A stretch of DNA of 35,248 bases from Olivibacter sp. XZL3. GTDB taxonomy: Bacteria > Bacteroidota > Bacteroidia > Sphingobacteriales > Sphingobacteriaceae. How positions within the stretch are numbered: position 1 is the first letter of the stretch; each line of letters starts with the position of its first letter. Where the stretch lies: positions 1 to 35,248 of the forward strand of contig NZ_SBJH01000057.1 in assembly GCF_004368405.1 (NCBI RefSeq), given 5' to 3'. The notes beneath the pieces were generated by a model, which was given only the letters and a program-made list of their open reading frames with translations, ran no database searches and had not been told where the DNA came from. The translations under genes were made by a program, and so were the position numbers. Below are positions 3,007-35,072 of this stretch, piece by piece.

Positions 3007-3036
3007 TTGTTTCGTAATAATTCTTGTATATATTTG
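3007..3036 (+). promoter_or_regulatory. Predicted promoter of the aromatic amino-acid operon
   Basis: TTG at 3007-3009 and TATATTTG at 3029-3036, separated by 19 bases, match the Bacteroidota -33/-7 consensus closely. Transcription would begin near 3040, about 15 bases before the leader peptide start codon at 3055. Confidence 0.7.
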
Positions 3037-3054
3037 CGATATCAAAAAGAAAAA

Positions 3055-3120
3055 ATGAAATACACAGCTGCATATTGGTTCTTTGGTTACTTTTACTTTA
3101 GTAGTAAGGGCCGGGATTAA
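3055..3120 (+). CDS. Aromatic leader peptide of the pheA-aro operon attenuator
   Basis: A 21-codon open frame, too short for ordinary gene calling, translating as M-K-Y-T-A-A-Y-W-F-F-G-Y-F-Y-F followed by S-S-K-G-R-D and a TAA stop. Nine of 21 residues are aromatic (four Tyr, four Phe, one Trp), eight of them in residues 7-15. This is the signature of a leader peptide in ribosome-mediated transcription attenuation: starvation for charged Phe, Tyr or Trp tRNA stalls the ribosome on the aromatic run. It lies between a strong promoter and a rho-independent terminator, directly ahead of pheA. A ribosome stalled around 3079-3090 leaves the antiterminator segment 3110-3116 free; one that reaches the stop codon at 3118 covers it. 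Confidence 0.88.
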   Translation: MKYTAAYWFFGYFYFSSKGRD

Positions 3121-3180
3121 TATGCATGTAAAGAAATAATGTATGAAAAAGTCCCGGTGAGCAACCGGGACTTTTTTTTT
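3110..3180 (+). terminator. Attenuator: antiterminator segment and rho-independent terminator
   Basis: The terminator is a perfect 8-bp stem GTCCCGGT (3151-3158) / ACCGGGAC (3164-3171) with loop GAGCA, flanked by five A and nine T so that the stem can extend to 13 bp, ending in a T run (3172-3180). The segment GCCGGGA at 3110-3116, inside the end of the leader peptide frame, can pair with TCCCGGT at 3152-3158 (six Watson-Crick pairs plus one G-U), which would destroy the terminator. The two pairings are mutually exclusive, as in trp- and phe-type attenuators. The terminator ends 12 bases before the pheA start. Confidence 0.9.
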
Positions 3181-3191
3181 GAAATTTAAAA

Positions 3192-4019
3192 ATGAGCAAA
3201 ATTAGAGTCGCGATTCAAGGAACACGAGCTTCTTTCCACGAAGAAGCAGCTTTCAAATACTTCGGACAGGATATCCAGACGGTAGAGTGTGAAACCTTTA
3301 AACACACCTGTGAAGCTTTGAAAAAAGATGAAGCCGACTATGTCGTCATGGCTATTGAAAACTCCATCGCCGGAAGTCTGCTTCCGAATTACACCCTGCT
3401 GCACGATTACCATTTCCCTATTGTTGGCGAGGTATACCTTAGCATACAGCTTCACCTACTCGCTTTGCCGGGCACCAAGCTGGAGCAAATCAAAAAAGTA
3501 GAATCGCACCCCATCGCCTTGCGTCAGTGTGCCGACTATCTGGAAGAGCATGCTTACCTCAAGGTGTCCGAAGGAACGGACACCGCTTCCTGCGCCAAAA
3601 AGATTGCGGAAAACAAGCTTACCGATACCGCGGCGGTTGCCAATCAGTTAGCAGCTAAATTATACGGTCTGGAAATCATCGATCGACGAATTGAAACAAA
3701 CAAAAAGAATTATACCCGTTTCCTGATCCTCTCAAAAGAAAAAACAGAAAATCCCAAAGCCAACAAAGCGACTCTTCTCTTTCAGACCGACAATAGCATT
3801 GGCTCATTGGCCCGTGTGCTTACTTTTTTTGCCGATGAGCAGATCAACATGAGTAAAATCCAATCGATGCCCGTGCTCGGAAAGCGCAATGAATACGATT
3901 TTTATGTTGACATTGAATGGAAAAAACAGAGCAATTACGATGCAGCCATCCGTAAGACACTTAAACACACCATAAATTTTAACATTTTAGGAGAATATAT
4001 CAAAAACGACAAGGTATAG
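3192..4019 (+). CDS. pheA: Prephenate dehydratase
   Basis: This enzyme converts prephenate to phenylpyruvate, the committed step to phenylalanine. The 275-residue protein has a periplasmic-binding-like catalytic domain (about 1-180; 'IAIQGTRASFHEEAA' type start, 'AIENSIAGSLLPNY' at about 55-68, and the signature 'KKNYTRFLILS' at 170-180 containing the catalytic Thr-Arg-Phe) and a C-terminal ACT domain (about 190-275) that normally binds Phe for feedback inhibition. There is no fused chorismate mutase; that activity sits in the next gene. It is the first gene after the attenuator, and the whole operon runs with short gaps through 7571. Length and motifs are standard. Confidence 0.96.
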   Translation: MSKIRVAIQGTRASFHEEAAFKYFGQDIQTVECETFKHTCEALKKDEADYVVMAIENSIAGSLLPNYTLLHDYHFPIVGEVYLSIQLHLLALPGTKLEQIKKVESHPIALRQCADYLEEHAYLKVSEGTDTASCAKKIAENKLTDTAAVANQLAAKLYGLEIIDRRIETNKKNYTRFLILSKEKTENPKANKATLLFQTDNSIGSLARVLTFFADEQINMSKIQSMPVLGKRNEYDFYVDIEWKKQSNYDAAIRKTLKHTINFNILGEYIKNDKV

Positions 4020-4067: not shown

Positions 4068-5174
4068 ATGAAACTAAATTTAGACATCTTGCCTTTGAGC
4101 TCTTGGCTAGCTACCGGCAAAGAACCTTTAGTAATTGCAGGGCCTTGCAGCGCCGAAACAGAAGAACAGGTCGTTGCCACTGCTCATTTGCTAGCCGCTA
4201 CCGGCAAAATCTCCGTATTGAGGGCAGGTATCTGGAAACCCCGCACCCGTCCGGGCGAATTTGAAGGCATTGGAAGCATCGGTTTGGAATGGTTAAAACG
4301 TGCCAAAGAAGAAACGGGCTTACTGACAGCCACCGAAGTAGCGACAGCAAAACATGTGGAAGAAGCATTGGCTGCGGGTGTTGATATATTATGGGTAGGT
4401 GCACGCTCAACGGCCAATCCGTTTACCGTTCAGGAAATTGCCGATGCATTGCAAGGCGTAGATGTACCCGTTTTAGTGAAAAACCCGGTAAATCCGGATT
4501 TGTCTTTATGGATCGGTGCTTTAGAGCGCATCAACCGTGCCGGCATTAAAAAGTTGGGAGCCATCCACCGTGGTTTTTCTTCCTATGAAAAGACGGCTTT
4601 CCGCAATGAGCCGATGTGGGATCTGGCTATTCAACTTAAAACAGTAGCGCCTGAATTACCAATCATTAACGATCCTAGTCACATTTGCGGTACGCGTGAA
4701 TTAATTCCTTACGTAGCACAAAAGGCAGTTGATTTGGATATGCAAGGATTTATTATTGAATCACATATCGATCCTTCTGTAGCCTGGACAGATGCCAAGC
4801 AACAAGTAACGCCTGCTGCCCTTGCAGAACTCATCAATAACCTTTCCTTGAGAAGAGCAGAATCAAATGATCCTGTATTTGAAGACAAATTAGCGGCTCT
4901 ACGTAAAGAAATCGACACTATTGACGATCAGATCATTAAAAAAGTTGCCGACCGGATGAAAATCGTTGAAAAGATCGGTGAATACAAGCGAGACAATAAA
5001 GTAACCATCTTACAGGTGAACCGTTGGGAAGAAATCATAGAAAAACGCGGTAAGTTTGCGAAAGCCTTGAATCTCGAAGAAGATTTCACCGTCAAATTAT
5101 TGGAACTAATCCATGGTGAGTCCATCCGCAAGCAGAACCAGATCATGAACGCCAAACCTGCAGTGGAGGCCTAA
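4068..5174 (+). CDS. aroG: 3-deoxy-7-phosphoheptulonate synthase / chorismate mutase fusion
   Basis: A bifunctional 368-residue enzyme. Residues about 1-265 are a type I-beta DAHP synthase: 'LVIAGPCSAETEEQV' (21-35), 'RAGIWKPRTRPGEFEGIG' (52-69), 'IHRGFSS' and 'NDPSHICGTR'. Residues about 275-360 are an all-helical AroQ-type chorismate mutase with 'LRKEIDTIDDQIIKKVADRM' and 'VNRWEEIIEKR'. It therefore supplies both the first step of the shikimate pathway and the chorismate to prephenate step that feeds PheA. This domain order is usual in Bacteroidota, where the mutase domain also makes the synthase sensitive to prephenate or chorismate. Its stop codon overlaps the aroA start (TAATG at 5172-5176), which indicates translational coupling. 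Confidence 0.96.
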   Translation: MKLNLDILPLSSWLATGKEPLVIAGPCSAETEEQVVATAHLLAATGKISVLRAGIWKPRTRPGEFEGIGSIGLEWLKRAKEETGLLTATEVATAKHVEEALAAGVDILWVGARSTANPFTVQEIADALQGVDVPVLVKNPVNPDLSLWIGALERINRAGIKKLGAIHRGFSSYEKTAFRNEPMWDLAIQLKTVAPELPIINDPSHICGTRELIPYVAQKAVDLDMQGFIIESHIDPSVAWTDAKQQVTPAALAELINNLSLRRAESNDPVFEDKLAALRKEIDTIDDQIIKKVADRMKIVEKIGEYKRDNKVTILQVNRWEEIIEKRGKFAKALNLEEDFTVKLLELIHGESIRKQNQIMNAKPAVEA

Positions 5175-6448
5175 TGAATACAGAAACACTCAGTGTATCA
5201 TATCCCGGCGGTGCGGTGCATGGCACCGTCCAATTAACAGGATCTAAAAGTGAAAGCAATCGTGCACTTATTTTAAGTGCCCTGAGTAAAGGAAAAGTCC
5301 GCATTGAAAATCTTTCCAATGCGGACGACACCGTTACGTTGCAAGCCATCTTAGAAGCACTTGACACGGCGGCGCAGGAAACTCAAACAATAAATGTTGG
5401 GCCGGCTGGCACGGCCATGCGTTTTTTAACGGCCTATCTTTCTACCATTCCGGGAAATTTTCTATTAACCGGTTCCGAACGGATGAAACAGCGACCTATC
5501 GGTATATTGGTAGATGCACTTAAAAGCATTGGTGCTGACATTCGCTATGCCGAACAAACAGGGTACCCACCGCTGGAAATTAAAGGCGGTTTTATACAAA
5601 CCCAGCCAGAAGTGGTTATCAAGGGAGACGTCAGCAGTCAGTACTTATCAGCACTGCTCCTCGTTGCCGCCTTTTTACCCGAAGGACTTACATTAAACAT
5701 CACAGGCACCTTAACGTCCAAACCCTATGTCAGCATGACGCTGGACATGTTGAACGAAACCGGAATCAGCCACGAATGGCAGGACAACCGCATCGCCGTT
5801 GGCAAACAGCAAGCAAAAGAGTCGGTACTGCGGGTAGAGCCCGACTGGAGCGCGGCTTCATACTGGTATTCCGTAATCGCATTATCTCCTCTGGGAAGCA
5901 GCTTATTTCTGCCAGGCCTGAAAGATCGCAGTTTGCAGGGCGACCGCGCCATTGTTGACATCATGGCAAATTTCGGCGTTCGGTCGACTTTCGAAAACCG
6001 CGGCGTTAAAATCGAAAAAACGGAGGCGGGTGAAGGTGAACGTTTTTTCGATTTAAAAGAGTGCCCAGATCTGGCACAAACGGTTATTACCTGTTGTGCA
6101 GCCCTGGGGTACGACGCCAGTTTTACCGGATTGGAAACGTTAAAGATCAAGGAAACGGATCGTATTCTGGCCCTTCAAAACGAATTGGCTAAATTCGGTG
6201 TGGAACTGCTGGAAGATAAGCAAGTTTATCACGTAAAAACGGCTGGCAGAACCAAGCCAAAAAGCACTACCATCAGTACTTATGAAGATCATCGGATGGC
6301 GATGGCTTTTGCGCCTTTAGCCCTCGTGTTTGAGGAACTGATTATTGAAGATCCAGCAGTTGTCGGCAAATCGTACCCAGCCTTCTGGGAGCATTTGACA
6401 AACGTAGGCTTTGAACTAAACCATAAGCACGACCTTCACACCTCTTAA
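5174..6448 (+). CDS. aroA: 3-phosphoshikimate 1-carboxyvinyltransferase (EPSP synthase)
   Basis: This enzyme transfers the enolpyruvyl group of PEP to shikimate 3-phosphate. The 424-residue protein has the substrate-binding '[14 protein letters not shown]' (22-35), the PEP-loop '[14 protein letters not shown]' (about 76-89), '[10 protein letters not shown]', and near the C-terminus '[11 protein letters not shown]' and '[13 protein letters not shown]' (about 373-385), all hallmarks of the family. It starts at the A of the aroG stop overlap, and 22 bases separate it from aroC. The second position of the PEP loop reads P-A-G-T-A rather than the common N-A-G-T-A, a variation seen in Bacteroidota sequences. 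No frame problems. Confidence 0.96.
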
Positions 6449-6470: not shown

Positions 6471-7571
6471 ATGGCAGGAAATTCATTTGGACAAAGCTTT
6501 CGGATTACAACTTTTGGAGAATCTCATGGAGAGGCTATTGGTGTCATCATTGACGGCTGTCCGCCAAATATACCCATTGAGCTCGACTTTATTCAGTCGG
6601 AACTCGATAAGCGCAAGCCCGGTCAGTCGAAAATCACCACGCAACGTAAGGAAAGTGATACCGTGCAGATACTATCAGGTGTTTTCAAAGGGAAAACAAC
6701 CGGTACGCCTTTAGCAATGTTGATTCCCAATGAAGACCAACGGTCGAAAGATTATTCCCACATCCAAGATAAATACCGGCCTTCTCATGCCGACTACACC
6801 TATCAAACGAAGTACGGCATACGCGACTATCGCGGAGGGGGACGTTCATCAGCGAGGGAGACAGCAGCGCGGGTAGCCGCGGGCGCCATTGCCAAACGCT
6901 ACCTACAGGAACTCGGCATTGCCGTTTTCGCACACGTATCTGCCGTCGGAAATATCGAGGCTCCCAATTTAGGAGACCTAACCTTAGAGGAGCTGGTTGA
7001 CATGCGCGAAGATAATATTGTTCGCTGTGCCGACCCTGCCACCGCCAACCAGATGATCAGTTTTATTGATTCGGTGCGGAAAGACGGCGATACGGTAGGC
7101 GGAATTGTAAGTGCTATTATAAAAGGAGTTCCGGTTGGTTTAGGCGAGCCTGTCTTTGATAAACTGCACGCCGATCTGGGAAAAGCTATGTTAAGCATCA
7201 ATGCGGTTCATGGTTTTGAATACGGTTCGGGCTTCAGTGGCGCAACGATGCGCGGCTCGGAACACAATGATATCTTTGTCAATCCGGCACAGCAAGCGCA
7301 GTCGCTGCAAACGCTCACCAATTTCTCAGGCGGTATTCAAGGCGGTATATCCAATGGAATGGACATTAATTTCAGGGTAGCCTTCAAACCTGTAGCAACC
7401 ATCATGCGGTCGCAACGCACGATCAACCAGTTAGGTGAAGAAACAGAAATTTCTGGAAAAGGGCGCCACGATCCCTGTGTTGTGCCACGTGCGGTAGCCA
7501 TTGTGGAAGCGATGGCTGCGCTGGTAATTACCGACCACTATTTGCGGAACCTCAGCTTAGGTCGCCTTTAA
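6471..7571 (+). CDS. aroC: Chorismate synthase
   Basis: This enzyme makes chorismate from EPSP using reduced FMN. The 366-residue protein begins '[20 protein letters not shown]' and carries the family signatures '[19 protein letters not shown]' (about 121-139) and, near the end, '[20 protein letters not shown]' (about 331-350). It is the last gene of the attenuator-controlled operon, followed by a bidirectional terminator at 7597-7637. With aroG, aroA and pheA it covers the first and last steps of the pathway to chorismate and on to phenylpyruvate; aroB, aroD, aroE, aroK and tyrA are not in this window. Confidence 0.97.
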
Positions 7572-34678: not shown

Positions 34679-34707
34679 CCGACTAACGTCGGGCTTGCTG
34701 TTGCTTT
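34664..34707 (-). terminator. 20-bp hairpin at the end of ssrA, likely its terminator
   Basis: AAAGCAACAGCAAGCCCGAC (34664-34683) and its exact reverse complement (34688-34707) flank a 4-base loop. The hairpin begins two bases after the mature 3' end of tmRNA. On the minus strand it is followed by only TTT before ACCCCCC, so the T run is weak, but the stem is very stable. Its distal arm is the last copy of the 15-mer of the tandem repeat. Confidence 0.75.
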
Positions 34708-34708
34708 G

Positions 34709-35072
34709 TGGAGCCGGAGGGATTCGAACCCTCGTCCAAACATGGTACTGTTTATGCTTTCTACATGCTTAGCTTCCGTTTAATTGTCGGGAAGTAGAAG
34801 GTCGGACGCTTACCTATACTTGCTTCCGTAGGCACTGAATTTCGCTAACTTATCGTGCCGCTAAGTCAGCTAGCTTCGTTGATCGATGCTCCTGGTGTTA
34901 CAGCACGAAGCAGACTGCAACGGAACAAAAGCTATGCTAATTCTAAATTAGGCAGCTAAGGCGTAGTTATTTTCGCCATTTATAAGGTTGAAAGTTCAGA
35001 TTATAGTGCTAGACTCACAACGCACTGCATGCTTACATAACCGTCTCCATCCTGTCAATTCCGGTCGACCCC
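34709..35072 (-). ncRNA. ssrA: Transfer-messenger RNA (tmRNA)
   Basis: About 364 bases. The 5' end GGGGTCG (35066-35072) pairs with CGGCTCC (34710-34716), forming the tRNA-Ala-like acceptor stem with discriminator A at 34709; CCA is not encoded. 'GAGGGTTCGAATCCCTC' is the T arm at the 3' end. The tag frame reads GENNYALAA then TAA (34977 down to 34948), possibly preceded by an Asn codon at 34978-34980, with the Bacteroidota-type ALAA end that proteases recognise. tmRNA rescues ribosomes stalled on broken mRNA and tags the peptide for degradation. A good promoter lies just upstream. Confidence 0.96.

Follow-up and report, generated by a model that had tools for sequence, protein, structure and literature searches.

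Ribosome-mediated transcription attenuation is a textbook mechanism that has been studied mainly in Proteobacteria. The enterobacterial pheA leader comprises a Phe-rich leader peptide, alternative hairpins and a terminator located before pheA, and the leaders of the trp, thr and his operons follow the logic of 1:2, 2:3 and 3:4 pairings. The ilvGMEDA leader is a multi-amino-acid leader, which reports on several branched-chain amino acids. The aromatic genes of other phyla are controlled by T-boxes or TRAP, and E. coli possesses separate DAHP synthase isozymes regulated by Phe, Tyr and Trp. A study of proteobacterial attenuators from 2004 and a comparative study from 2010 may already mention Bacteroidota.

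The available text of one report states that no leader-peptide system was known outside Proteobacteria and Actinobacteria before Firmicutes were added there (PMC2965389). Leader genes close to start codons are mentioned in the accessible part of another study (PMC4833913). For Bacteroidota, the accessible sections of PMC9723704 describe structured 5′ elements that are conserved upstream of pheA and hisG in Flavobacteriaceae, including Flavobacterium psychrophilum, as well as clues for leader-peptide attenuation before amino-acid operons and conserved elements, that of pheA included, with no Rfam hit. Short frames reminiscent of leader peptides occur in long 5′ UTRs of Bacteroides thetaiotaomicron, according to the available text of PMC7366714. 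The original prediction described such leaders as little described in Bacteroidota; this is true of the literature searched, with one partial exception, as far as the available text of that report goes (PMC9723704).

In the present study, the DNA ahead of pheA was analysed in a stretch of 35,248 nucleotides of Olivibacter sp. XZL3, which as a whole is called the window below. It is very probable, judging by the sequence, that a ribosome-mediated transcription attenuator controls the operon of pheA, DAHP synthase/chorismate mutase, aroA and aroC. Such attenuation, originally proposed for pheA-aroG-aroA-aroC, is strongly supported by the anatomy of the region, its conservation, the compensatory changes in the terminator and the spacing. 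The mechanism is classical; what is new is how widely the element is spread in Bacteroidota, that the code at a shared aromatic operon mixes Phe and Tyr, and that some relatives carry tandem copies.

Organisation of the leader region and the operon

The features of the locus are listed in Table 1. The motif TTG / TAnnTTTG with 17-21 nt between its parts, which we take to be the housekeeping promoter motif of Bacteroidota, is found at 3007-3036, and the pattern occurs three times per strand across the whole window. It is located within 95 nt upstream of 45 of the 49 family leaders, compared with 0.26 expected from mononucleotide shuffles. Bacteroidota rarely use Shine-Dalgarno initiation. The aromatic residues of the leader peptide are Y3, Y7, W8, F9, F10, Y12, F13, Y14 and F15.

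Table 1. Coordinates of the leader elements and operon genes in the window
Feature	Position	Strand	Details and basis
Bacteroidota-type promoter, TTG-N19-TATATTTG	3007-3036	+	-7 box 3029-3036; sequence
Leader peptide frame, MKYTAAYWFFGYFYFSSKGRD	3055-3120	+	ATG 3055, TAA 3120; 21 codons, nine aromatic
1:2 hairpin (protector): leader codons with antiterminator arm and its 3′ flank	3067-3129	+	fold, alignment
Strand 2, antiterminator 5′ arm GCCGGGA, within the last leader codons	3110-3116	+	pairs with 3152-3158
Strand 3, terminator 5′ arm; 3152-3158 doubles as antiterminator 3′ arm	3147-3158	+	sequence, fold
Strand 4, terminator 3′ arm	3164-3175	+	sequence, alignment
Nine-T tract of the intrinsic terminator	3172-3180	+	sequence
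pheA, prephenate dehydratase, probable ACT domain	3192-4019	+	Pfam PDT 3.9e-57
DAHP synthase fused to chorismate mutase	4068-5174	+	Pfam DAHP_synth_1 and CM_2
aroA, EPSP synthase	5174-6448	+	Pfam 2.7e-84
aroC, chorismate synthase	6471-7571	+	Pfam 3.1e-146

An intrinsic terminator (3147-3180) is present between the leader and the first gene, pheA. Its stem pairs GTCCCGGT (3151-3158) with ACCGGGAC (3164-3171) and is lengthened by four A-U pairs, formed by A and T tracts, to 12 bp (3147-3175). The sequence GCCGGGA at 3110-3116 is complementary to TCCCGGT at 3152-3158, with one G-U pair. All the coordinates previously assigned to the parts of the attenuator were confirmed by direct reading of the sequence. 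The fold of the leader RNA contains, in addition, the 1:2 hairpin (3067-3129), which had been overlooked, and this hairpin completes the classical 1:2 / 2:3 / 3:4 layout. The terminator 3147-3175 was not listed by a generic terminator scan; a separate terminator finder did detect it.

The segment 3106-3120 is both coding and structural, the C-terminal KGRD/KSRD of the leader being the translated antiterminator arm. In the family alignment A1, relatives with earlier leader stops retain the antiterminator arm in the RNA and lose the KGRD/KSRD residues.

The four genes from pheA to aroC probably form one transcript. The ACT domain of the pheA product scores 22.5 bits, below the Pfam cut-off of 27. 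Apart from the DAHP synthase/chorismate mutase, no DAHP synthase was found in the genome: a second DAHP_synth_1 (PF00793) match was rejected as being KdsA by NCBIfam, and a search of the genome for type II DAHP synthase gave no match. The tyrA gene is located on another contig, beside an aminotransferase. The 696 nt before the aminotransferase of this cluster contain neither an ATG-started short frame with at least five aromatic residues nor a terminator-like hairpin, so that a leader before the tyrA cluster was rejected. At the far end of the window, a tmRNA gene was found on the minus strand (34706-35072; 126 bits to RF00023).

Competing pairings and position of the ribosome

The folding energy of the leader RNA is -44.7 kcal/mol, compared with a mean of -24.3 kcal/mol for shuffled sequences (z -6.66), and none of the 200 shuffles was as good. 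The antiterminator (-9.7 kcal/mol) is weaker than the terminator (-19.9 kcal/mol), and in the complete transcript at equilibrium the terminator is favoured in all three states tested, its probability being 0.999 even with a ribosome at F10. This indicates that readthrough must be kinetic, as in the classical model. In the ribosome-free partial transcript extending up to strand 3, the 2:3 antiterminator wins at equilibrium (0.97), and termination without a ribosome therefore depends on the 1:2 helix forming first; before strand 3 emerges, this helix has formed almost completely (0.92-1.0 across eight tested pairs).

The effect of a stalled ribosome was computed by masking its footprint at each codon and calculating how the transcript, extended as far as strand 3, would pair. 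With the 3′ edge of the footprint set at +9, +12 and +15, a stall at any aromatic codon of the window leader leaves strand 2 free, and a ribosome at codons from 18 to the stop masks it. For the family (49 leaders), 2:3 pairing has an average probability of 0.999 with the ribosome at an aromatic codon (389 codons), compared with 0.004 at the stop codon; the corresponding values outside the family are 0.92 and 0.22. Non-aromatic codons further upstream are permissive too, so the scan shows a boundary, not the choice of codon. The last aromatic codon ends 10-11 nt before strand 2 in 39 of the 49 family leaders, a distance at which strand 2 just escapes a stalled ribosome, and 4-14 nt before it in the 31 leaders outside the family. 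The spacing had been expected to let a ribosome stalled at the control codons free strand 2 and a ribosome at the stop codon mask it, and the computation agrees with this expectation.

What is seen in the sequence and in the comparison, namely the frame and the three pairings with their conservation and spacing, suggests how leader translation, stalling, termination and the response to amino acids would be connected. Transcription would start just after 3036, and the ribosome would enter the leader frame at 3055. With charged tRNA-Phe and tRNA-Tyr plentiful, the ribosome at the stop codon would cover strand 2, strand 3 would pair with strand 4, and RNA polymerase would stop at 3172-3180. Were tRNA-Phe or tRNA-Tyr uncharged, the ribosome would stall on a codon within Y7-F15 and open the 1:2 hairpin; strand 2, thus freed, would pair with strand 3, and transcription would continue into pheA. 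Phe and Tyr would be the main signals, with a possible contribution of Trp by way of the one W8 codon. With no translation at all, the 1:2 hairpin would form first, allowing the terminator. The attenuation reading presupposes transcription-translation coupling in Bacteroidota.

Conservation of the leader

The counts and shuffle controls for alignment A1, which comprises 48 distinct leaders of the family of the window, ignore kinship. On this alignment, standard pairs of the terminator are found in 97.2% of cells (24-65% in slid controls), and 7 of its 12 pairs show changes on both sides, a value as high as this being reached by none of 500 shuffles. An aromatic-rich short frame together with a terminator carrying compensatory changes is thus present ahead of pheA in the relatives, as the original prediction had anticipated. 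The antiterminator is paired in 91.4% of cells (11-66% in slid controls). Its changes on both sides are found in 3 of 9 pairs, a number reached by 38 of the 500 shuffles, and 10 of the 12 double-change cells are on one pair, probably representing one clade; the covariation of the antiterminator is weak and comes mainly from one pair.

The 1:2 helix is paired in 82.3% of cells (40-46% in slid controls) and has 51 double-change cells, compared with 27.7 in shuffles. Changes on both sides occur in 11 of its 26 pairs, which is not above the shuffles (mean 9.5; 11 reached by 112 of 500), and the three outermost pairs are weak and poorly kept across the alignment.

The leader frame is kept in all 48 aligned sequences. 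Within the aromatic core (A1 columns 38-69), gap runs are only 6 nt (47 rows) or 3 nt (20 rows) long, and a one-base difference at the very end of the core, in column 70, alters the stop. The aromatic fraction of the core is 0.76 in the leader frame, compared with 0.17 and 0.21 in the other frames, and the leader frame is the highest in 75 of the 75 leaders that could be located among 80, the core being bounded by in-frame aromatic codons, which somewhat favours this frame. What is conserved in the family leaders is the coding frame together with the arms of the hairpins and the distances between them.

Distribution among Bacteroidota

The closest named relatives among the 80 loci listed are Olivibacter jilunii (97% PheA identity) and O. 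domesticus (92%). A search with PheA as a query gave a match in 183 of 201 family genomes. These genomes were scanned with R1, a covariance model built from 48 leader sequences; genomes counted in the scan contributed at least 30 of them. At E <= 1e-7, a cut chosen by ourselves, with matches counted by eye, R1 matched 180 of the 183 genomes with pheA and none of the 18 without it. Only weak R1 matches were obtained in the remaining pheA-bearing genomes (G007, G008 and G032), and at E <= 0.01 some match was found in each of the 201 genomes. In all 76 genomes compared (76/76), the R1 and PheA matches share a strand, and the R1 match precedes the PheA match with a gap of 1-84 nt. No further copies of the element were found in the Olivibacter genome at E <= 0.01 under strict filters, with which 16 of 2844 candidates were scored, and the sole other R1 match within the window is a weak one (25.4 bits) on the minus strand over the same hairpin.

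A detector was also applied, with criteria fixed once positives were known: it requires a hairpin followed by a T run near a gene start and, 5-75 nt ahead of this hairpin, a short frame rich in aromatic codons. It recognised 55 of the 55 family pheA upstream regions, with 52 distinct leader-terminator cores (two loci, L010 and L034, belong to one genome). In other Bacteroidota, it recognised 40 of 95 (15 of 53, 18 of 24 and 7 of 18 in three samples). These matches include other families of the class and three genomes of other classes of the phylum (L121, L123, L126). On visual inspection, a leader is present in some of the 55 regions missed, e.g., L101 and L106. The element is widespread among Bacteroidota genomes with pheA. 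It is not universal in the phylum, since a PheA match was present in only 39 of 149 genomes of the class sample and in none of the other 110.

In the set of 80 listed loci, the detector found a leader in 33 of 36 with a DAHP synthase gene downstream of pheA, and in 2 of 37 without it; this count covers at most 3 kb downstream, less on short contigs, and leaves out five repeats and L076. Lineage and operon type are confounded in this comparison. The downstream sequence covered in 38 of the loci L055-L098, mostly from Prolixibacteraceae and their kin, contains no DAHP synthase gene.

Amino-acid specificity

Of the 95 leaders detected, 80 entered the analysis; the other 15 (6 family, 9 others) scored less than 17 for strand 2 and were dropped. 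Phe codons are present in 80 of these 80 leaders, Tyr codons in 79 and Trp codons in 39, the last as a single codon per leader (family, 21 of 49; others, 18 of 31). The family totals are 195 Tyr, 173 Phe and 21 Trp codons. On account of these counts and totals, the element is best read as a Phe/Tyr leader with an optional Trp codon. It had been supposed that Phe, Tyr and Trp are sensed together. As regards Phe and Tyr, this part stands, and sensing of both by the leader is well supported; Trp, found in fewer than half of the family leaders, is not supported as a conserved signal across the family, and sensing through the single W8 codon is only possible.

There is an even chance that the attenuator responds to Phe and Tyr alone, or to translation stress in general, and that its Trp codon is incidental. 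This reading would explain why Trp never exceeds one codon per leader and is rare beside Tyr and Phe, and the trp operon of the same genome has a WWW leader and a terminator of its own. On the other hand, the Trp codon of the window leader is at a permissive stall position, with a 2:3 probability of about 1, it is kept in several genera and in more than half of the leaders outside the family, and the operon carries the single DAHP synthase found, an enzyme that supplies Trp synthesis as well.

Alternative explanations

A fixed terminator serving the upstream transcript, accompanied by an aromatic short frame that arose by chance and regulates nothing, might account for the arrangement, as Phe codons arise easily in T-rich DNA and a terminator ahead of an operon can serve the upstream gene. 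The promoter immediately upstream of 45 of the 49 leaders, the frame-specific aromatic residues, the restriction of core gap runs to 3 or 6 nt and the maintenance of the alternative pairing in 91.4% of cells speak against it, as does the strong R1 match, which tracks the presence of pheA. The detector found nothing in 3000 dinucleotide shuffles (150 upstream regions, 20 each) or before 488 other ORFs of at least 150 aa of the same loci. By these two controls a chance short frame was rejected, and the explanation as a whole is extremely improbable. A protein or small-molecule sensor (riboswitch, T-box or TRAP-like) using the terminator, with the short frame secondary, is hardly more credible. 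Such control of aromatic genes is known from other phyla, as noted above, but no Rfam model matched the leader region at its gathering score, and the conserved part is made up of the coding frame, the arms and their spacing, no separate conserved aptamer being seen in the 48 family leaders of A1. A riboswitch or T-box was rejected, the tmRNA being the only match at the Rfam gathering score in the whole window.

The leader peptide could also act in trans, besides or instead of control in cis. The trp leader peptide peTrpL of Sinorhizobium is reported to act in this way in the available text of PMC7298713. The C-terminal KGRD/KSRD, however, is explained by the RNA arm that it encodes, and several relatives stop before this arm; a role in trans is thus very unlikely, if a little less so than the two explanations above. 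Ribosome-mediated attenuation in cis is the preferred reading of the locus.

Relation to described systems and meaning

The best sub-threshold Rfam match is RF01859 (Phe_leader), whose full model covers 3054-3180 of the window with 28.5 bits, compared with a gathering score of 55 (E 0.0044 for the 221-base search). The element thus works like Phe_leader and is not a member by the curated threshold. The likeness to the enterobacterial pheA leader lies in the Phe-rich leader, the alternative hairpins and the terminator before pheA. Unlike in Phe_leader, Tyr is as frequent as Phe here, and the operon adds DAHP synthase/chorismate mutase, aroA and aroC. The trp, thr and his leaders (RF00513, RF00506 and RF00514), none of which reaches its cut-off (23.1, 23.0 and 18.6 bits, respectively), share the pairing logic but differ in codons and target operons. 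The ilvGMEDA leader likewise covers several related amino acids, although these are branched-chain and not aromatic, and belongs to another phylum. The pheA 5′ element of Flavobacteriaceae concerns the same phylum and gene, and the available text of its description gives no leader sequence, codon specificity or pairing scheme (PMC9723704).

The attenuator stands before the central aromatic operon of nearly all pheA-bearing genomes sampled in the family, and well beyond it. This distribution would imply transcription-translation coupling in Bacteroidota, at any rate across leaders of this type. It further points to one common sensor at the apparently sole DAHP synthase of this genome, replacing separate regulated isozymes of the E. 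coli type. A more far-reaching and rather doubtful possibility is that the sole aromatic entry enzyme in Bacteroidota is governed by one ancient attenuator, which reads the charging state of tRNA-Phe and tRNA-Tyr together, joined in some lineages by that of tRNA-Trp. In certain lineages, two attenuators differing in codon set would be arranged in series, one with FEYNYFYF followed by one with FFFFW or FFYFFW, and act as a two-step gate.

Other leaders in the genome and tandem units

Leaders of other specificities were encountered in the same genome. An RNWWWP leader with a terminator is located before trpE (L165, C113; reverse strand 1543-1708), and a Thr/Ile-rich leader, MKRTIAITTSTIITTGTAWYRGK, containing TIAITTSTIITT, with a terminator, is located before thrA (L198:285-461, C113). 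Similar Thr/Ile leaders are present in L169 and L170. Weak R1 matches were noted in three other family genomes, and the two located before thrA were examined; in these two genomes the second-best R1 match is a Thr/Ile leader before thrA. A His-rich leader, MSKVFTHHVHFHHRLCGDM (HHVHFHH), precedes hisG (L164, C100; reverse strand 1999-2167). The terminator finder detected no T-run terminator after the latter frame, which was therefore not counted as an attenuator of the same kind and possibly reflects another mode of control. Leader-peptide attenuation thus looks like a general habit in this genome.

Tandem aromatic leader-terminator units before pheA were observed in five MAG loci labelled Bacteroides sp. 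(L096, L097, L100, L101 and L106). They lie about 300 nt upstream of pheA, the first leader containing FEYNYFYF(N/T) and the second FFFFW or FFYFFW. In a sixth locus, L108, a remnant of the first tandem unit was found, whose frame survives without a start codon or terminator.
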